A DNA stretch of 34,091 bases from Clostridia bacterium (GTDB lineage Bacteria > Bacillota > Clostridia > Christensenellales > Borkfalkiaceae). Shown piece after piece: positions 1,177 through 9,336 of the stretch. Each line of letters begins with the position of its first letter. Within the stretch, counting starts at the first letter, position 1. The stretch covers positions 1 through 34,091 of the forward strand of contig JAFQGG010000035.1 in NCBI GenBank assembly GCA_017415505.1, written 5' to 3'. The translations under genes were made by a program, and so were the position numbers. The notes below the pieces were generated by a model. That model saw only the letters and a list, made by a program, of their open reading frames with translations. It was not told where the DNA came from and did not search any database.

Positions 1177-1569
1177 TTAATTTTCTTCGTCTTCCGACGG
1201 TTCGTCGGGAGAGGTAGTATAGGTGATTTTTTTGAACAGCTCGTCCATTTTCGCGCCGTAACCCATACTGCCGTCCAAACGGAAGGTGAGTGCGGGAACG
1301 GTACGCATACGCATGACTTGGGAAAGCTCCTTACGGATAAAGCCCGCGTTGTTTTGCAGGACGGCGAGCGTGTGTTTCACTTCTTCTTCACCGCCCGCGC
1401 CGTAGATACTCACGTATACGTACGCCGTTTTCAAATCGGGCGCGACGTCCACTTCCGTCACCGAGATCAAGCCTTTCATATCGGGCGCGCGGTCTTTTAC
1501 GCGCCGTAAAATCGAGCTGATTTCTTTTTGGTATTCGCCGTTCAGTCTTGACGTTCTCGATACTTTCAT
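1177..1569 (-). CDS. rbfA: 30S ribosome-binding factor A
   Basis: The 130-residue product matches RbfA, a small KH-like protein that binds the maturing 30S subunit and helps process the 5' end of 16S rRNA. Typical stretches are R-T-S-R-L-N-G-E-Y-Q-K-E-I at the start, L-I-S-V-T-E-V-D-V-A-P-D-L-K-T-A-Y-V-Y-V-S in the middle and R-K-E-L-S-Q-V-M-R-M-R-T-V-P-A-L-T-F toward the end, followed by an acidic tail. I chose the ATG at 1569 because it overlaps the infB stop as TAATG, is preceded by GGAGG inside infB, and begins the conserved domain. A longer frame to 1653 exists, but its extra residues do not resemble RbfA. Translation is probably coupled to infB. Confidence 0.92.
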   Translation of the reverse strand: MKVSRTSRLNGEYQKEISSILRRVKDRAPDMKGLISVTEVDVAPDLKTAYVYVSIYGAGGEEEVKHTLAVLQNNAGFIRKELSQVMRMRTVPALTFRLDGSMGYGAKMDELFKKITYTTSPDEPSEDEEN

Positions 1570-4298
1570 TACGCTTTGATTTCCTCCGTTACGTAACATT
1601 CGATAATATCGCCTACGCGGATTTCGTTGAAGCCGTCGATCGCACAACCGCATTCATAGCCGTAGTTGACTTCTTTCACGTCGTCCTTGAAGCGTTTCAA
1701 CTGTTTCACTCCGCCTTCGCAAATCATGATATCTTCGCGGTAAATACGCAATTTCCCGCCACGGACGATCTTGCCGTCGATAACGTAGCAACCCGCAATC
1801 GTGCCCACGCCCGTAATATTGAACGTTTGGCGAACTTCGCATTTACCCGTAAGCACTTCTTTAAGCTTGGGTGCAAGCATACCTTTGAGTGCCAATTCCA
1901 TATCGTCGAGAAGCTCGTAAATGATACGGTAGCTTCTTACGTCCACTTTCGAAGTTTCCGCAAGTTTCTTTGCCTTCGTATCCGGACGGACGTTGAAACC
2001 GATAATAATGGCGTTCGCACTTTCCGCAAGCATGACGTCGCTTTCGTTGATCGCACCCGCCGCCGCGTGAATAACTTTTACGTGAACTTCTTCGTTCGAG
2101 AGTTTTTCAAGCGATTGTTTTACCGCTTCTACGCTACCCTGTACGTCGCCTTTGACGATAAGGTTGAGCGTTTTGATTTTGCCCTCTTCCACTTGCGCGA
2201 ACACGTCGTCGAGGGTAACGCGACTTTGCTCTTTGATCATGCTTTCGCGTTGTTTGTTCTTTCTCTCTTCCTGTACCTGCTTCATGAGCGCTTGATCAAC
2301 GACCATGATGCTATCCCCCGCGTTGGGCACTTCTTCCAAACCGAGAATGGAAACTGCCATGGACGGACCAGCCGACTTCACGGCTCTGCCCTTATCGTCG
2401 AACATGGCGCGCACGCGACCCATGGTCGTACCGGAAAGGATATTGTCGCCCGTTTTAAGCGTACCCGTTTGTACGATAATGCTCGCCACGGGACCTTTGC
2501 CCTTATCGAGCTTCGCTTCGATAATCGTACCTTTTGCGGGACGGTCGGGGTTGGCTTTGAGTTCTTGCATTTCGGCAACGAGGTTGACCGATTCCAACAA
2601 CTCGTCGATACCCATACCCGTCTTTGCGGAAACGGGCACGACCATCGTGTCGCCACCCCATTCCTCGGGCACGAGCTCGTATTGCATAAGCTCTTGTTTT
2701 ACGCGATCGGGATTGATCTCGTATTTATCCATTTTGTTCATAGCAACGATAATGGGCACGTTCGCGGCTTTCGCGTGGTTGATTGCCTCTACCGTTTGCG
2801 GCATGATACCGTCGTCCGCAGCCACCACCAAAATAACGACGTCGGTAACTTGCGCACCGCGCGCACGCATTGCCGTGAACGCCGCGTGACCGGGCGTATC
2901 GATAAAGGTGATTTGTTTGCCCTTTGCCGTGACCGTGTACGCACCGATACTTTGCGTAATACCGCCCGCTTCGCCTGCCGTAACGGAGGTTGCGCGAATC
3001 TTATCGAGCAAGGAAGTTTTACCGTGATCGACGTGACCCATGACCGTAACGACGGGAGCGCGGGTAACGAGTTTGCTCGTATCCTCTTCCCCTGCCGTCG
3101 TATCCATAAGCACTTCTTCCGCCGTCTTTTCGGGTTTATATTCAAGATCAATACCCAAATCCATGGCGATCATGAGCGCGTTTTCGTAATCGATAGAATC
3201 GTTGATCCCTTTCATGATACCCGCTTTGAACAAACGCTTGGAAATTTCCACGGCGGACACGCCGAGCTTTTCCGAAAGCACTTTCAAGGGAATATCCTGC
3301 GTAGTAACGACCGCGTGTTCGATTTTTACCGTTTGGATTTCTTGGCGTTTTTGCTTCTTAGGCGAGCGTACTTTTCTATACCCACTCTTATCCTCGTCGA
3401 AGTCCTCCACCGTCATGCCTTGTTGCTTGATAAGCGCGCGCTTGGAAAGGGGCGCTTTCTTTTCGGTATACGTCTTTTCGAAGGTCTTTTTCTTTGCGGG
3501 CGCGGAGAAACTCTTATCTCTCGGGGGCATAACGGGCGCGCTAATCGGCGCACTTACGCGCGGAGTCCGCGTACCGCCTTGCGGGGGTCTTGCACCGCCC
3601 GTAAAGGGTTTATCGCCCACGGGGCGCACGGGTCTTTCGCCCGGCGTACGGGGACGGCGACCGGAGCTGTACGAGGTAGCCGTAGACGGGCTTGTCGTTT
3701 CCACGCCCGACTTCGCCACGTATTCGCCTTGCACTTGACCGTTACGGAAATAACGGGGAGCGCGGGGCGCGGCAGGTGCGGGCTTATACGTTTTAAGCTC
3801 TGGCTTCGTCGGCTTCTCCTCCGCCTTTTCTACCGTTTCTTCCGCTTTTTCTGCGGGAGCAGGGGTAGGCTCTTCCACCGTTTCCACCGTTTCTTCCGCT
3901 TTTTCTTCCGTCTTTTCTACGGGCGCAGGCGCGGGTTCTTCCGTCTTTTCTTCCGCTTTCTTGCGCGTAGTGCGTTTCTTCGGCTTTTCTTCCGTTTCCA
4001 CGGTAGGCGTGGGTCCTTCTTTCACTTCGGGCGCGGATTTTTTAGCGGCTTCCTCCGCCGCCTTTGCTTCCGCTTTTGCGGCTTCCTCCGCGGCGCGGGC
4101 TTCCGCCTCTGCGCGTGCCGCCGCTTCCGCAGCGTCGCGTTCCGCTTTTTCCGCTTCCAGAACGGACAGATTTTTCAAAATCTCCGAAATATTTTTTTCC
4201 GTGGCGGACAGACGCTTCAACACACCGCCGAGATTATCTTCTCCCAACAGTTTGAGTACGTTCTCCACGCTTTCATATTTTTTCTTCTTTTCTGCCAT
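1569..4298 (-). CDS. infB: Translation initiation factor IF-2
   Basis: The product has 909 residues. The first 45 or so form a short conserved head, then comes a long low-complexity region: Ala/Glu-rich near 49-87, an imperfectly repeated Glu/Pro/Ala/Lys block near 117-165, and a Pro/Arg/Thr-rich basic stretch to about 270. The IF2_N helical domain lies near 335-385 (K-V-L-S-E-K-L-G-V). The GTPase domain follows with G-H-V-D-H-G-K-T at 421-428, D-T-P-G-H at 467-471 and N-K-M-D at 521-524, then the beta-barrel and initiator-tRNA binding domains. IF-2 delivers fMet-tRNA to the 30S subunit and promotes subunit joining. The start at 4298 follows GGAGG and lies four bases after the ylxQ stop; an in-frame Met at 4358 lies inside ylxQ and is less likely. 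Confidence 0.96.
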   Translation of the reverse strand: MAEKKKKYESVENVLKLLGEDNLGGVLKRLSATEKNISEILKNLSVLEAEKAERDAAEAAARAEAEARAAEEAAKAEAKAAEEAAKKSAPEVKEGPTPTVETEEKPKKRTTRKKAEEKTEEPAPAPVEKTEEKAEETVETVEEPTPAPAEKAEETVEKAEEKPTKPELKTYKPAPAAPRAPRYFRNGQVQGEYVAKSGVETTSPSTATSYSSGRRPRTPGERPVRPVGDKPFTGGARPPQGGTRTPRVSAPISAPVMPPRDKSFSAPAKKKTFEKTYTEKKAPLSKRALIKQQGMTVEDFDEDKSGYRKVRSPKKQKRQEIQTVKIEHAVVTTQDIPLKVLSEKLGVSAVEISKRLFKAGIMKGINDSIDYENALMIAMDLGIDLEYKPEKTAEEVLMDTTAGEEDTSKLVTRAPVVTVMGHVDHGKTSLLDKIRATSVTAGEAGGITQSIGAYTVTAKGKQITFIDTPGHAAFTAMRARGAQVTDVVILVVAADDGIMPQTVEAINHAKAANVPIIVAMNKMDKYEINPDRVKQELMQYELVPEEWGGDTMVVPVSAKTGMGIDELLESVNLVAEMQELKANPDRPAKGTIIEAKLDKGKGPVASIIVQTGTLKTGDNILSGTTMGRVRAMFDDKGRAVKSAGPSMAVSILGLEEVPNAGDSIMVVDQALMKQVQEERKNKQRESMIKEQSRVTLDDVFAQVEEGKIKTLNLIVKGDVQGSVEAVKQSLEKLSNEEVHVKVIHAAAGAINESDVMLAESANAIIIGFNVRPDTKAKKLAETSKVDVRSYRIIYELLDDMELALKGMLAPKLKEVLTGKCEVRQTFNITGVGTIAGCYVIDGKIVRGGKLRIYREDIMICEGGVKQLKRFKDDVKEVNYGYECGCAIDGFNEIRVGDIIECYVTEEIKA

Positions 4299-4302
4299 AA
4301 GT

Positions 4303-4635
4303 TCAGTTGGTTCCTCCCGAATATAATTTGAATTGCGTATCGTTTGCCGTTTCACCAACGATCGCCAAGGCGAGGTTTTTATCGGTAATCGCCACCGTTT
4401 TCACGCCGATACGGTGCAACCGTTCGCCCAGCGTCCCCGCCGTCGCTTTGATCAGCGGACAAGCAAACTTTTCTTGCGCTTTGGCAACGAGTTTTTGCGA
4501 ACTCGTTCCAAGCGATTCGTCGGCAATGATTAGGAAAACTCCCTTCTTCTTTTGCTCGACCTCTTCCGCGCCAAACACGATTTTCCGTGCGCGGATACAA
4601 AAACCGAGATAGGTTTCTATTTTACTTTTCTCCAA
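4303..4635 (-). CDS. ylxQ: L7Ae/L30e-family RNA-binding protein YlxQ
   Basis: This 110-residue protein belongs to the L7Ae/L30e/S12e/Gadd45 family of small RNA-binding proteins. Visible features are G-F-C-I-R-A-R-K-I-V-F-G near residues 11-22, a hydrophobic strand L-I-I-A-D, and the later K-A-T-A-G-T-L-G-E. The start is TTG at 4635, inside the last codons of rnpM (14-base overlap). It is supported by AGGAGG seven bases upstream, also within rnpM, so translation is probably coupled. YlxQ sits between rnpM and infB in many Bacillota; kink-turn RNA binding is known for family members, but the physiological target is not settled. The identification rests on both sequence and position. Confidence 0.9.
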   Translation of the reverse strand: MEKSKIETYLGFCIRARKIVFGAEEVEQKKKGVFLIIADESLGTSSQKLVAKAQEKFACPLIKATAGTLGERLHRIGVKTVAITDKNLALAIVGETANDTQFKLYSGGTN

Positions 4636-4894
4636 GGATATCCTCCTCTACGCCCCGATAGACCTCGGGCGCGATCTCCGAAGAAAAAGCCTTGTGCAAC
4701 AGTTTCTTATCGTTGAGTTTTTTCATGCACTCGCTTGCACCGCAAATATACGCGCCTCTGCCCGCGGCTTTTCCCGTCGGGTCGGCGAACACTTCGCCCT
4801 CCGCCGTTTTTACCACGCGCGTCATTTCCTTTTTCGGCTTCATTTCACGGCAAGCGATACACATTCTCATAGGTACGGACTTTTTCTTCGCCAT
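4622..4894 (-). CDS. rnpM: RNase P modulator RnpM (YlxR, DUF448)
   Basis: This 90-residue protein carries the DUF448 signature R-M-C-I-A-C-R-E-M-K-P-K-K-E-M near residues 10-24, the T-R-V-V strand and G-R-G-A-Y-I-C near 45-51. Proteins of this family bind RNA; the Bacillus subtilis member has been reported to interact with RNase P RNA and modulate its activity. The ATG at 4894 follows GGAG at about ten bases. The gene lies between nusA and ylxQ exactly as in other Bacillota, and its last codons supply the ribosome binding site for ylxQ. Two cysteine pairs (C12/C15 and C51/C56) are visible. The family call is firm and the function comes from the family. Confidence 0.9.
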   Translation of the reverse strand: MAKKKSVPMRMCIACREMKPKKEMTRVVKTAEGEVFADPTGKAAGRGAYICGASECMKKLNDKKLLHKAFSSEIAPEVYRGVEEDILGEK

Positions 4895-4912: not shown

Positions 4913-6007
4913 TTATTCTGCGTCTTCCTCGCCATCTTCGCTTTCCATGGTGGCAAGGATTTCCGCCGCCTCAGGCGAGGACGCGCTCTTCACGTCGATC
5001 TTCCAGCCCGTAAGGCGTGCCGCAAGGCGTGCGTTTTGTCCGTCGCGACCGATTGCAAGCGAGAGCTTGTCGTCGGGAACGATCGCGATTGCGCTACGCT
5101 CGTCTTTCGCCGTAACCGAAAGTACGGTCGCGGGAGAAAGTGCTTTGTAAATGAACGCGAGCGGGTCTTCGTTCCAAAGAATGATATCGATTTTTTCACC
5201 GCCGAGCTCTTCCACTACGGCGTTCACGCGCGCGCCTCTATTACCTACGCAAGCGCCCACCGCGTCCACTCTCGAATCGTTGGAGAAGATTGCCATCTTC
5301 GTTCTATGCCCCGCTTCACGCGCGATTTCTTTGATTTCCACGATCCCTTGTGCGATTTCGGGTACTTGTTCTTCGAAGAGTTTCTTCACCAAGCCCTGCG
5401 CCGTACGCGAAACGACGATTTGCGAGTTTTTACCGCTACTCTTTACGCGCTTTACGAACACTTTGAGTTTGTCGCCCACGTTGTATCTTTCGGTAGGTAC
5501 GCGGTCTTGCGGAGGCATAACGCCTTCGATTTTCTTATCGCCGAGTTCCACGTAGACGTTGCGTTCGTCGATTTTACGAATCGTGCCCACCATGAGCTCG
5601 CCTTCCTTATCCGAGAATTCGGAAAGGGTGTTGTCGCGTTCCGTTTCGTGCAATTTTTGCAAAATAACCTGCTTTGCCGTTTGCGCGGCGATACGCCCGA
5701 AGTCCTTGGGAATAAATACGCGTTCGATCTTGTCGCCCACTTGATAGTTGGGATTAATCTCTTGCGCGTCTTCCAAAGAAATTTCCTTATCCTTATCCGT
5801 CACCTCTTCCACGACGTAACGGGTAGCCTTAAACTCAATCGTGCCCTTTTCCGCGTCGAGCGTAACGGTAATTTCCGCACCGCCGTCAAACTGCTTTTTA
5901 TAAGCGGATGCCAATGCGTTTGCCAGCGTTTCGAGGAATGCTTCCTCGCTGATACCCTTTTCTCTTACCAAATCGGCAAGCGCCTCGAAAAACTCCTTGT
6001 TGTTCAT
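4913..6007 (-). CDS. nusA: Transcription termination/antitermination factor NusA
   Basis: The 364-residue product shows the NusA architecture: an N-terminal RNA-polymerase-binding domain with the F-I-P-K-D-F-G-R-I-A-A-Q-T-A-K-Q-V-I stretch near 100, an S1 domain beginning at G-T-I-R-K-I-D-E-R-N-V-Y-V-E, and two KH domains with V-G-A-C-V-G-N-R-G-A-R-V and L-S-L-A-I-G-R-D-G-Q-N-A-R-L. The acidic C-terminal repeats of enterobacterial NusA are absent, as is normal in Bacillota. NusA enhances pausing and intrinsic termination. Two near start codons exist. I chose the ATG at 6007 because AGGAG stands ten bases upstream, whereas it almost touches the ATG at 6016. Confidence 0.95.
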   Translation of the reverse strand: MNNKEFFEALADLVREKGISEEAFLETLANALASAYKKQFDGGAEITVTLDAEKGTIEFKATRYVVEEVTDKDKEISLEDAQEINPNYQVGDKIERVFIPKDFGRIAAQTAKQVILQKLHETERDNTLSEFSDKEGELMVGTIRKIDERNVYVELGDKKIEGVMPPQDRVPTERYNVGDKLKVFVKRVKSSGKNSQIVVSRTAQGLVKKLFEEQVPEIAQGIVEIKEIAREAGHRTKMAIFSNDSRVDAVGACVGNRGARVNAVVEELGGEKIDIILWNEDPLAFIYKALSPATVLSVTAKDERSAIAIVPDDKLSLAIGRDGQNARLAARLTGWKIDVKSASSPEAAEILATMESEDGEEDAE

Positions 6008-6049
6008 AGTTTTCATTCTCCTGTCTGTATTTATGAATTATTTATTCTC

Positions 6050-6520
6050 TTATTCCAAACCGCTCATATCGATTGCGCGGCAAATTTTTGCTATCTTGGA
6101 AATCTCCAACTTCATGCTCTCGCCCTTTTCTTCAAGCTCGATACAGTTCCCGTCGTAACCAACGAGGGTCGCCTCGAAAAACTTCTTGCCTTTTAAGGGT
6201 GCAAACAGTTTCACTTCCACCCGTTGCCCCATGCACTTTTGGAAATCTCTTTCCGTCTTCAACGGTCTATCCAAACCGGGGCTGGATACGTTGAGCGTGT
6301 ACGGCGCGCCGAAAGTGGGGTCAACCTCGTCCAAAACGGGATCGATCGCGCGGTGGAATTTTTCGCAAGTGTCAAGATCCACCCCGCTTTCCGTATCGAT
6401 ATACACGGTGAGCGCGGGTTCTCTGCCTTGCTTGAACTCCACTTCCACGATTTCAATTTCCATTTCGTCGGCGATCGGTTGCAACGCGTTTTGTATTTCT
6501 TCTATCGTCTTTACTTTCAT
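6050..6520 (-). CDS. rimP: Ribosome maturation factor RimP
   Basis: The 156-residue protein has the two-domain layout of RimP, needed for 30S subunit maturation. The N-terminal domain carries I-E-I-V-E-V-E-F and L-T-V-Y-I-D. The family hallmark Y-T-L-N-V-S-S-P-G-L-D-R-P-L lies near residues 74-87, and the C-terminal SH3-like domain follows. AAGGAG precedes the ATG at 6520 by about five bases. It is the first gene of the translation-factor cluster and is directly preceded by its own promoter and a leader hairpin. nusA follows 42 bases downstream. Confidence 0.94.
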   Translation of the reverse strand: MKVKTIEEIQNALQPIADEMEIEIVEVEFKQGREPALTVYIDTESGVDLDTCEKFHRAIDPVLDEVDPTFGAPYTLNVSSPGLDRPLKTERDFQKCMGQRVEVKLFAPLKGKKFFEATLVGYDGNCIELEEKGESMKLEISKIAKICRAIDMSGLE

Positions 6521-6668: not shown

Positions 6669-7763
6669 TTAAATTATCCCTTCGCGGTGCAAATCCGCGT
6701 AAGCCTTTTTGACGATCGCAAGGTGTTCCCCGTCGAAAATCGCGGGCCAATTCCGCAAATGCATTCCAATCACGATAGAAACTTCGTTTACGGGGTCTAC
6801 CATTAGGTAAGTACCTGCCGCGCCGTCCCAGCCGAATTCCCCGACGGGAAGCCCCCAATCGGTGGCGCGAATCCGCGTACGCACGCCCAAGCCGTACCCG
6901 TAATCCTCGCCCTGCACGCAGGTAAAGCCGTTCTTCAAGGACAGCCGTCCGCCGTTCCCCTCGCGGATTTTTTCGAGCGTTTGCTCTTGCAAAAGTCTAT
7001 ACCCGTTTCTATCCGTTCCCCCGCACGCAAGCGCGTCGGCAAACAGCGCGTAATCGCCCACGGTGGAAATCACGCCCGCGCCGCCGCTGTCGTATTCGTC
7101 GCCAACGACGAGTTCGTTGCCTTTATCAAAGGGCGCGATCGTGCGCGAATCCTCGCTCCAATACTGCGGAGCAAGAACGCGCGTCTTTTCCAAGTGAAAG
7201 CCCGTATCGCGCATACCGAGCGGGTCGAAGATAAGCTCTTGCATAAAGCGAGAAAACCGTTTCCCGCTCGCCACCTCTATCACCGCGCCGAGGATATCGT
7301 GGCAAACGCTGTATTGAAAGCGTTCCCCGGGTTGAAAATCCAACGGCGAGGAAGCAAACGCGTTGACGATAGAAAGGGTATCGCAAATCCCCTTTTGCAA
7401 CAGCTCGACGACGGGCGGACGGTAAATATCGTAATTAAATCCCGCCGTCATGGTCAAAAGGTGTTTTACCGTCATTTCCTCTTGCACGGGCGCACCGTCT
7501 TTTACGCGCATATTTGCAAACGCGGGAAGATACTTCTTCACGGGATCGCCTAGCGAAAGCTTACCCTCTTCCACGAGTCGCATAGCGCAAACGACGGTGA
7601 GCGGTTTCGTCGCGGAGTACAAATACAACAGCTCCTTGCCCGTACCCTTTGCCGTATACCGCAAAAGCGGTTGGTGTTTTTTCCAAACGGAAAAATCGAG
7701 AAGGGACAAACCCTTTTCTTTTGCGAGCGAATCCAAATATCGTTTTACTTCCCGTCCTTGCAT
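6669..7763 (-). CDS. Serine hydrolase of the class C beta-lactamase / esterase family
   Basis: This 364-residue protein carries the S-x-x-K motif S50-A-T-K53 typical of penicillin-binding proteins and class C beta-lactamases, and a Tyr motif Y151-S-V in place of the classical Y-x-N. A-x-x-L-x-L-G-D-P-V-K-K-Y-L-P near 62-80 and H-L-L-T-M-T-A-G near 101-108 are also family marks. There is no signal peptide, so it is more likely a cytoplasmic esterase or peptidase-like hydrolase than a secreted beta-lactamase. Its start lies one base after the stop of the PolC-derived gene. It therefore occupies the place where the polymerase part of polC would be expected upstream of rimP. The substrate cannot be predicted. 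Confidence 0.85.
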   Translation of the reverse strand: MQGREVKRYLDSLAKEKGLSLLDFSVWKKHQPLLRYTAKGTGKELLYLYSATKPLTVVCAMRLVEEGKLSLGDPVKKYLPAFANMRVKDGAPVQEEMTVKHLLTMTAGFNYDIYRPPVVELLQKGICDTLSIVNAFASSPLDFQPGERFQYSVCHDILGAVIEVASGKRFSRFMQELIFDPLGMRDTGFHLEKTRVLAPQYWSEDSRTIAPFDKGNELVVGDEYDSGGAGVISTVGDYALFADALACGGTDRNGYRLLQEQTLEKIREGNGGRLSLKNGFTCVQGEDYGYGLGVRTRIRATDWGLPVGEFGWDGAAGTYLMVDPVNEVSIVIGMHLRNWPAIFDGEHLAIVKKAYADLHREGII

Positions 7764-7764
7764 T

Positions 7765-9336
7765 TTATATCCCTACTTTTCCTTTCTTTTTTACCATTTC
7801 CATAAAGCATTTCGCCGTCACGCAAGCATCGTCGAACGCGCGGTGGTGTTGGAATGTAAAGCCGTAATAATCGGCGAGTGAATTGAGTTTATAATTGGGC
7901 AACGCGCCCCGCAAGACCTCTTGCGCAAGCGTCAAAGTGTCGAACTGCCGTTGATCGAACATATACCCGTTTTGCTCCCCGTAATAGCGCACGAAGTCGT
8001 AGTCGAAGCCTACGTTATGCCCCACGAGGAACGCGCCGTCGGTGAACTTGAAAAAGTCCGCAATCGCCTTATCGATCTCGGGCGCGCCGACGAGATCGTT
8101 ATCCGTAATGCCCGTAAGCTCGATAATCTCTTTCGAAAGCCGTTCTTTGCACGCCACGAACGTGGAGAACTTCTCCGTAATTTCCCCGCCCACGAGCTTG
8201 ACCGCGCCGATTTCGATAATTTTGTCCATTTTTCCCATGGCGGGTTGGTGGTTCAAGCCCGTCGTTTCGAGGTCGAATACGACGAAAATATTATTCTTCA
8301 ATTCGTCGGGTTTATCGAGCGAATCGAAAAAGCCCGCCTGCGTATAATCGATATACGGTTCGGGGAATACGGTGTGATAAAACTTCGGCACGGGTTTGCC
8401 CTTTCTCGCCACGGGAACGAAGTCCTCGGGCGGTGCGCCGTAGTTAATTTTCGACGCCTTGAAAGACACGCTCCCGTTGTACTCTTCCAACGCCCCGATA
8501 ATCACGATTTTATCCCCCGCTTTGAGTTCGCGGATTTTCTCCACCGTCGCTTTTTTCGGGAAATAGGTCGTTCTAATATTGCCCGTACCGTCCGTAACCG
8601 ACACGGAAAAACGGGATTTTTCCATATCCTCGCCCGTCTTTTCGTTGTGCTTTACGTACTGTTTTTCCTCGATATAAGTAACCGTTCCGCATACGGCGAA
8701 CGAACCTTCCGTATTCATATAATCCGCCATGTACACGGCGTACTCGGGTACTTCGTCCGCACCGTCAATCTTTTCAAAATCGCAAATGGGGAAACGGCGA
8801 ATTTCCGCGCCCACCGCCTCTTCCGTTTCGGGCAATTCTTCCAAGATATCGTCGCTCGGTGCTTCCTTTTCCACCACCCGCACGTTGCCGTAGAAAGTAC
8901 CGCAAAAAATGCTTTGCAAATACTCGCTCACCTCGTCGAGAATCTTGCCCGAGGAGAACAGCGTTTGTTCGCCCGAGGCGATATCCACGAAGAAATGTGC
9001 ACCGCTTGCAAGCAGTTCCACTTCGATATACCGCTCGTCTAAAAACGCGCCCGCCGCGGGGAATTTCGCGGTGACGAAATCGAGGATTTTGCGTTTGATC
9101 ATTCCCTCGTCGGGCACGCGTTTGATAATTTTCATTTCCGCCGTAAAGGACGCGGGCAAATATCTTTGCGTAATCGCTTGCGCGTTCGCCTCGTCCATCG
9201 CCGTATACGTCTTATCCGTTACGAGCGAAAACTCCGCCACTTTTTTCCTACGGTATATCGTGATACCGTATAAAATGGCGTTTTTCAAACCGTCTATTTC
9301 CCGTATTTCCCGCAAATATTCTTCCGTTCTGCTCAT
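7765..9336 (-). CDS. PolC-derived protein: N-terminal domain, OB fold and DEDDh 3'-5' exonuclease, without PHP or polymerase domains
   Basis: The 523-residue chain starts with a region resembling the N-terminal domain of PolC (about 1-195). An OB-fold-like segment follows (about 205-300, F-A-V-C-G-T-V-T to F-K-A-S-K-I), and then a complete DnaQ-type exonuclease (about 350-515). The exonuclease residues are intact: D355 and E357 in F-D-L-E-T-T-G-L, D445 in H-N-V-G-F-D, and H498/D503 in H-R-A-F-D-D. The chain then ends with a normal stop at the point where PolC would continue into PHP and polymerase domains. The PHP half normally lying between OB and exonuclease is also missing. The ATG overlaps the ispG stop (ATGA). 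ispG-polC-rimP-nusA is a common clostridial order, so this is probably a reduced polC at its original site. It may proofread or trim DNA as a separate chain. Confidence 0.8.
   Translation of the reverse strand: MSRTEEYLREIREIDGLKNAILYGITIYRRKKVAEFSLVTDKTYTAMDEANAQAITQRYLPASFTAEMKIIKRVPDEGMIKRKILDFVTAKFPAAGAFLDERYIEVELLASGAHFFVDIASGEQTLFSSGKILDEVSEYLQSIFCGTFYGNVRVVEKEAPSDDILEELPETEEAVGAEIRRFPICDFEKIDGADEVPEYAVYMADYMNTEGSFAVCGTVTYIEEKQYVKHNEKTGEDMEKSRFSVSVTDGTGNIRTTYFPKKATVEKIRELKAGDKIVIIGALEEYNGSVSFKASKINYGAPPEDFVPVARKGKPVPKFYHTVFPEPYIDYTQAGFFDSLDKPDELKNNIFVVFDLETTGLNHQPAMGKMDKIIEIGAVKLVGGEITEKFSTFVACKERLSKEIIELTGITDNDLVGAPEIDKAIADFFKFTDGAFLVGHNVGFDYDFVRYYGEQNGYMFDQRQFDTLTLAQEVLRGALPNYKLNSLADYYGFTFQHHRAFDDACVTAKCFMEMVKKKGKVGI

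Follow-up and report, generated by a model that had tools for sequence, protein, structure and literature searches.

A shortened polC gene encoding N-terminal, OB and exonuclease domains in PolC-less Christensenellales and its possible role as an accessory proofreader for DnaE

In this study we describe a short gene at the polC locus of a Clostridia bacterium (order Christensenellales, family Borkfalkiaceae; assembly GCA_017415505.1) that, on the sequence evidence, descends from polC itself. It keeps the N-terminal domain (NTD), the OB domain and the DEDDh 3'-5' exonuclease of PolC and has lost the PHP domain and the polymerase. Its product might act in trans as a clamp-tethered accessory proofreader for DnaE, a reading to which we give a probability of about 60%.

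RESULTS

The short gene and its neighbours

The window, that is the whole stretch of DNA analysed, comprises 34,091 nucleotides of contig JAFQGG010000035.1. The genes at the locus are the following:

4913..6016, minus strand, nusA (named by eye)
6050..6520, minus strand, rimP (named by eye), marker of the polC locus on its downstream side
6669..7763, minus strand, beta-lactamase-fold serine hydrolase (Pfam Beta-lactamase, E 3e-55), between the short gene and rimP
7765..9336, minus strand, the polC-derived NTD-OB-exonuclease gene, a real open reading frame of 523 codons
9333..10379, minus strand, ispG, marker of the polC locus on its upstream side

The initial annotation had placed a gene of 523 residues between ispG and the rimP-nusA operon, with a serine hydrolase gene filling the space up to rimP; reading frame, coordinates, neighbours and the beta-lactamase-fold match bear this out. 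According to the coordinates, the ATG of the short gene overlaps the stop codon of ispG. The order ispG, short frame, rimP was found in 15 of the 20 short-form loci first fetched, and both flanks were present in 23 of 32 further ones, the other nine having one flank not seen within the fetched stretch. At one locus (L055, family f26) nusA alone was seen on the nusA/rimP side. For comparison, polC lay between ispG and rimP in 9 of 20 polC loci, with ispG upstream in 18 of the 20. The hydrolase gene is variable at the locus (at L049, for example, rimP directly follows the short gene) and is not counted into the short-gene system.

Domain content of the short protein

The protein can be divided as follows, the catalytic residues being assigned from an alignment with PolC proteins of this order:

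8767..9336, minus strand, PolC-type NTD, residues 1-190 (hhalign against the PolC NTD, probability 96.9%, E 1.9e-10)
8437..8739, minus strand, OB domain, residues about 200-300 (hhalign against the PolC OB domain, probability 99.0%, E 2.3e-18)
8290..8436, minus strand, linker, residues 301-349, standing where PolC has the PHP N-half
8326..8340, minus strand, clamp-binding-like motif Q333-A-G-F-F337, followed by D (aligned rows compared with shuffles)
7786..8292, minus strand, DEDDh 3'-5' exonuclease domain, residues 349-517 (Pfam RNase_T, E 5.1e-35)
8272..8274, minus strand, catalytic D355
8266..8268, minus strand, catalytic E357
8002..8004, minus strand, catalytic D445
7843..7845, minus strand, catalytic H498
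7828..7830, minus strand, catalytic D503

NTD and OB domain were each compared with PolC on their own, with the exonuclease excluded. Against other parts of PolC, PHP and polymerase pieces among them, both stayed below 1% hhalign probability. The OB domain also matches Pfam tRNA_anti-codon (28 bits, cut-off 27). When a profile of 29 short forms was aligned to a profile of ten PolCs from the same order, columns 24-520 were colinear (probability 100, E 2e-47); PolC models match residues 344-519 only of the short protein. Both halves of the PHP domain and the C-family polymerase core are absent from the protein, whose chain stops after the exonuclease, and its C-terminus, MEMVKKKGKVGI, has no C-terminal clamp-binding motif. 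The linker showed no similarity to the PHP N-half when domain pieces were compared by hhalign. Since the PHP N-half, which in PolC lies between OB domain and exonuclease, is missing as well, the short gene is, judging from its domain layout, not a simple C-terminal truncation of polC; the loss of both PHP halves and the polymerase is more than one stop codon could do. Hhalign and the PolC alignment hence agree with the earlier description of a PolC-like NTD, an OB segment, an intact DEDDh exonuclease (all five residues) and a clean end with PHP and polymerase gone, and they extend the loss to the PHP N-half.

The D-E-D-H-D set in an RNase_T fold places the exonuclease in the DnaQ-like DEDDh superfamily. 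It was matched by TIGR00573, a broad, domain-level model of the epsilon family (99.9 bits, cut-off 71.5), and stayed below the cut-offs of the equivalog epsilon models TIGR01406 (76.2 bits, cut-off 222.7) and PRK05711 (77.7 bits, cut-off 196). It might be asked whether a PolC NTD-OB part has been fused to a different DEDDh exonuclease. The best NCBIfam match is a DEDD exonuclease model (148 bits), narrowly above a PolC model (145 bits), the linker is without a PolC counterpart, and the exonuclease tree does not separate the PolC exonuclease from other DEDDh proteins as nearest relative, all of which would suit such a swap. However, colinearity with PolC over residues 24-520 and a PolC exonuclease as best PDB match (2p1j, E 6.1e-31) argue against it, and we consider a swap very unlikely.

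Polymerases of the genome

The initial annotation had recommended a genome-wide search for another PolC or DnaE. In the draft genome (54 contigs, 93.9% complete) this search returned no full polC, with nothing above the cut-off of the PolC model TIGR01405, and a single dnaE, the one gene above the cut-off of the DnaE model; the absence of PolC leans on the relatives too. A split PolC with its polymerase encoded elsewhere was rejected: the 1220-residue frame that the PolC model matched second is this single DnaE. The short protein is thus encoded separately from the polymerase, as is epsilon, and the genome has one DnaE and no PolC, as in DnaE1-only systems. The DnaE carries an intact PHP motif and a QISLF clamp motif, which, by motif content, would fit clostridial DnaE1. 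Its PHP proofreading motif was complete in 40 of the 41 DnaE proteins examined, the 41st (G094) being cut by the region edge.

DnaE proteins of the PolC-less clade have extra residues in the polymerase part, at residues about 477-508 of the genome's own DnaE (L007). They form two runs of 4-5 columns, filled in at least 70% of 30 rows, whereas in 11 rows taken for comparison, that of G071 (see below) among them, the share is 20% or less, and the genome's own DnaE carries more of them; they are a possible contact site. The genome has one other DEDDh match (L003, 743-1288), in a 920-residue frame that appears helicase-like by eye and is the sole other match to the short protein at E <= 1e-3.

Distribution of the short form

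A protein search of 61 genomes found the short form in 37 of 37 genomes of the genus, the present one included. We then surveyed the order with an even draw of 151 genomes of at least 90 completeness. PolC was found in 57 of them (E <= 1e-100), none of which showed the short form. In 81 of the remaining 94 the short form was recognised by profile match and frame length (506-714 aa), and 41 of these 81, the present genome included, were extracted and aligned. The 13 genomes with neither PolC nor a profile match might have suggested gene loss, which was rejected for 12 of them: they have a frame of 484-548 residues adjoining ispG (the one of 484, in G122, is shortened by a contig end), and 11 of the 12 were aligned. 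The thirteenth, G071 of family f11 (96% complete), showed no PolC, no short form and no ispG at E <= 1e-40, and reflects either an assembly gap or a separate or further loss. PolC and short form were never found together in any of the 151 genomes, although the profile, which missed the f16 forms, may equally have missed a dead or strongly diverged short form where PolC is present. Among the PolC genomes, four frames of 504-563 aa were rejected as short forms: in G058, G154 and G178 the match is confined to the exonuclease, and in G109 a contig end has truncated the genome's PolC and left its first part as the frame. Exactly one DnaE match at E <= 1e-150 was present in 148 of the 151 genomes and none at this threshold in three.

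Frames of similar size occur in 15 of the order's families, among them f16. In a survey of the class (243 genomes) we noted ten full-length short forms among the matches listed (to E ~8e-63), all from this order. Related short forms were also found in metagenome-assembled genomes of Candidatus Gallimonas and Candidatus Coproplasma, which presumably correspond to Christensenellales/Borkfalkiaceae in GTDB; the NCBI lineages give Clostridia for both and Eubacteriales incertae sedis for Coproplasma. Many records of related loci are titled as sourced from animal gut. The short form is thus conserved over the clade, in all congeners and in most PolC-less genomes of the order. A decaying fragment or an assembly error might have been suspected in a draft assembly from which most of a larger gene is missing, and the initial annotation had named a complete polC elsewhere, absence of the gene from relatives, or misassembly as grounds for giving up its interpretation. 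No full polC was found elsewhere, and the 37 congeners and the order survey led us to reject this explanation, which is hardly credible.

Origin from polC

In a DnaE tree of 41 genomes a single branch (SH-aLRT 100) split the ten PolC genomes from the 30 labelled PolC-less, which belong to 14 families; G071, unlabelled in this tree, was placed among the f11 PolC genomes. PolC occurs widely across the class (frames of 1300-1590 aa with an exonuclease match). Given this, and given that one branch sets all labelled PolC-less genomes apart, a single loss of the polymerase part is the simplest history for the 14 families. The NTD and OB matches, the locus order and the absence of PolC agree with descent from polC at its ancestral locus, as had been proposed.

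Other forms of PolC were noted as well. In f62, a distant clostridial family, a 1088-residue PolC-like protein directly follows ispG (L271 of G290, 1561-4824; the copy of G221, L272, is cut by a contig end). It keeps NTD and OB domain but lacks the PHP metal motif as well as the polymerase motifs, PDIDLNF and GSRGSVGSS; here PolC function has probably been lost a second time, independently, with a remnant kept. Within the order of the present genome, a damaged catalytic set in the exonuclease was seen in five of the 20 full-length PolCs examined (L160, L162, L164, L165 and L167, from f11 and f13). In several other clostridial families (e.g. in G226, G250 and G273) PolCs skip the exonuclease segment, the match covering about 4-174 and then 372-1211 in frames of about 1270-1290 aa.

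Loss of catalytic residues

The five catalytic residues, intact according to the initial annotation, are invariant in 29 of 29 aligned sequences of the genus (from 29 of its 37 genomes). Beyond the genus this does not hold throughout: among 57 aligned short forms 39 have all five and 18 are incomplete. The 18 dead forms comprise seven from f16, nine from f19 and two from lineage f29-g70, the form of f19-g81 being intact. On the DnaE tree, with ten dead rows, at least three independent losses are needed. The dead lineages keep a frame of about 485-548 residues at the locus and align to the intact set over nearly their whole length. When a profile was built from intact forms only, every one of the 18 dead forms, together with one cut form, was still matched by it in the NTD-OB-linker part (E <= 3.2e-29). 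For f16 the profile score stems almost entirely from NTD, OB and linker, with little added by the following part, a putative exonuclease identified mainly by colinearity. The dead exonuclease region stays open, with a mean identity of 50-60% within clades, in the 14 of 18 dead forms that were compared (L172, L244, L245 and L247 lie outside the compared groups). Among the pairs listed (6 of 15 for f19), pS was 0.57-0.81 and pN/pS 0.27-0.74, values that are bounds only since synonymous sites are near saturation. The best conserved part is the OB domain in f16 and f19; in f29-g70, and likewise in the active forms of f29, f3 and f18, it is the exonuclease region. As catalytic residues were lost in at least three lineages and the frame was kept, the NTD-OB part probably has a further, non-catalytic role, and the protein is probably kept for more than catalysis.

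The strongest rival of the accessory proofreader starts from these observations. It holds that NTD, OB domain and clamp motif are under selection as a replisome scaffold (for the clamp, the clamp loader, DnaE or primer ends), with the exonuclease as an optional, useful extra. The dead lineages with their retained frames, their recoverable NTD-OB-linker, the identity kept in the dead exonuclease region at near-saturated synonymous sites, and the weight of NTD-OB-linker and OB domain in f16 and f19 would fit this view. So would f62, with its NTD-OB part in a PolC without polymerase motifs, and a proposal that the PolC NTD binds the clamp loader (PMC3919608). However, in 11 of the 14 aligned families all forms are fully catalytic, and the exonuclease is the best conserved part in the active forms named above, so that we consider a scaffold rather unlikely as the main role.

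A clamp-type motif in the linker

The alignment used here, with 46 rows (the window and 45 of 80 related loci, 24-70% identity), left out PolCs, exonuclease-only matches and the partial or over-long short frames L082 and L092; all five catalytic residues are intact in each row. The loose pattern Qxx[LIMFV][FLYV] occurs in the linker of 42 rows, compared with 3.6 expected from shuffled sequences, and the strict pattern Qxx[LIM]F in 33, compared with 0.47. With the 57 aligned forms, dead ones included, the counts were 44 versus 5.2 (loose) and 26 versus 0.66 (strict). Of the 39 intact forms 4 are without the loose motif, as are 9 of the 18 dead ones; six of the seven f16 forms keep the Q, followed by other residues. 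Ranked by conservation, Q333 comes sixth among the columns of residues 1-345. None of 20 PolCs of the same order has such a motif between OB domain and exonuclease, and all 20 have one in their last 20 residues. The B. subtilis PolC motif is C-terminal and essential, and QL[S/D]LF or QxxLF is given as the clamp motif consensus (PMC12309361). The motif of the window, QAGFF, fits the loose pattern and not the strict one; it has glycine at its third position, a residue that at this position reportedly weakens clamp binding in E. coli (PMC12309361). We infer that the short protein may bind the clamp through this motif, which gives a sequence-level hint for the clamp side of the contact with DnaE or the beta clamp that had been suggested for checking.

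DISCUSSION

A possible course of events is that, in one ancestor of many families, polC lost both PHP halves, the polymerase and the C-terminal end, leaving NTD, OB domain, linker and exonuclease at the locus. The C-terminal clamp motif of PolC would have gone with the polymerase, a QxxLF-type motif would now sit directly ahead of the exonuclease, in the newly formed linker, and the single DnaE would have become the sole replicative polymerase. In the present-day protein the linker motif might dock on the beta clamp, while OB domain and exonuclease might take the frayed 3' end made by DnaE. The NTD, which in PolC is described as related to tau domain V (PMC12926913, and likewise the title of a 2011 paper) and, as noted, has been proposed to bind the clamp loader, would be expected to hold the clamp loader or DnaE. 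The 3'-5' exonuclease would then work in trans beside the PHP site of DnaE, and we speak of an accessory proofreader because that site remains. Exonuclease activity, clamp binding, partner contacts and an effect on fidelity are all predicted properties of the short protein.

Several points count against the accessory proofreader. With the PHP motif of DnaE intact in 40 of 41 proteins a second proofreader is not strictly needed, about a third of the aligned forms (18 of 57) lack the full catalytic set, the linker motif is missing in some forms and has a glycine in QAGFF, and the ancestry of the exonuclease is not separated in the tree. It might also be possible that the protein is no proofreader but a clamp-bound nuclease for repair or for the trimming of Okazaki ends: repair could be the task of a DEDDh enzyme that carries a clamp-type motif, and DnaE already has its PHP proofreader motif. 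Yet the replicase from which the gene arose, at the polC locus, had a proofreading module, and the gene occurs in complementary fashion with PolC; a repair or trimming nuclease is, in our judgement, distinctly unlikely. As to the initial interpretation, descent from polC, absence of PolC and conservation over the clade are upheld, and a proofreader in trans, like epsilon, remains the most likely reading. Proofreading as the sole function everywhere is contradicted by the loss of catalytic residues in at least three lineages in which the protein persists. Tentatively, and with somewhat less than even confidence, we propose a single dismantling of a replicase in which the polymerase was dropped, while NTD, OB domain and exonuclease lived on in almost all descendants as a clamp-docked subunit of their own; in at least three lineages this subunit would later have turned into a replisome factor without catalytic activity.

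How does the short form compare with known systems? It shares with PolC the locus and the order of NTD, OB domain and DEDDh exonuclease, but is without PHP and polymerase and has its clamp-type motif in the OB-exonuclease linker instead of at the C-terminus. Like E. coli epsilon (DnaQ), it is a separate DEDDh exonuclease beside DnaE with, by sequence, a clamp-type motif; unlike epsilon, whose clamp motif lies after the exonuclease, it has a PolC NTD and OB domain, an apparent descent from polC and the motif before the exonuclease. The epsilon motif is QTSMAF (PMC12309361), and a separate DnaQ has been assigned to Proteobacteria, Actinobacteria and Treponema (PMC12926913). PolCs without the Exo insertion, reported from Clostridia and Negativicutes (PMC3919608), show PolC taken apart in a further way within this class, but as a mirror image, with the polymerase kept and the exonuclease gone. 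Systems of PolC plus DnaE1 and DnaE1-only Clostridia are also known (PMC3919608). The latter likewise have a single DnaE with intact PHP motif; what is added here is the polC remnant and its likely single origin, the available sections of PMC3919608 mentioning no remnant. PolA2 (APEX) of Actinobacteria combines a QxxLF clamp motif with a dead 3'-5' exonuclease domain, but is an A-family polymerase that has kept its polymerase (PMC12926913). We found no description of an NTD-OB-exonuclease remnant of polC in the literature searched (titles and beginnings of abstracts, with the accessible sections of PMC3919608 and PMC12926913).

In conclusion, we describe a natural dismantling of one of the two great replicase types of bacteria. 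It bears on the division of labour between PolC and DnaE in Clostridia and on the role of the poorly understood N-terminal domains of PolC. Because the protein is conserved although catalytic residues were lost repeatedly, a function other than catalysis can be put to the test. If our reading were true, many Clostridia would naturally be without the target of PolC inhibitors. And if indeed PolC was dismantled in this way, its front end would have a task at the replication fork of Clostridia that can be separated from DNA synthesis as well as from proofreading.
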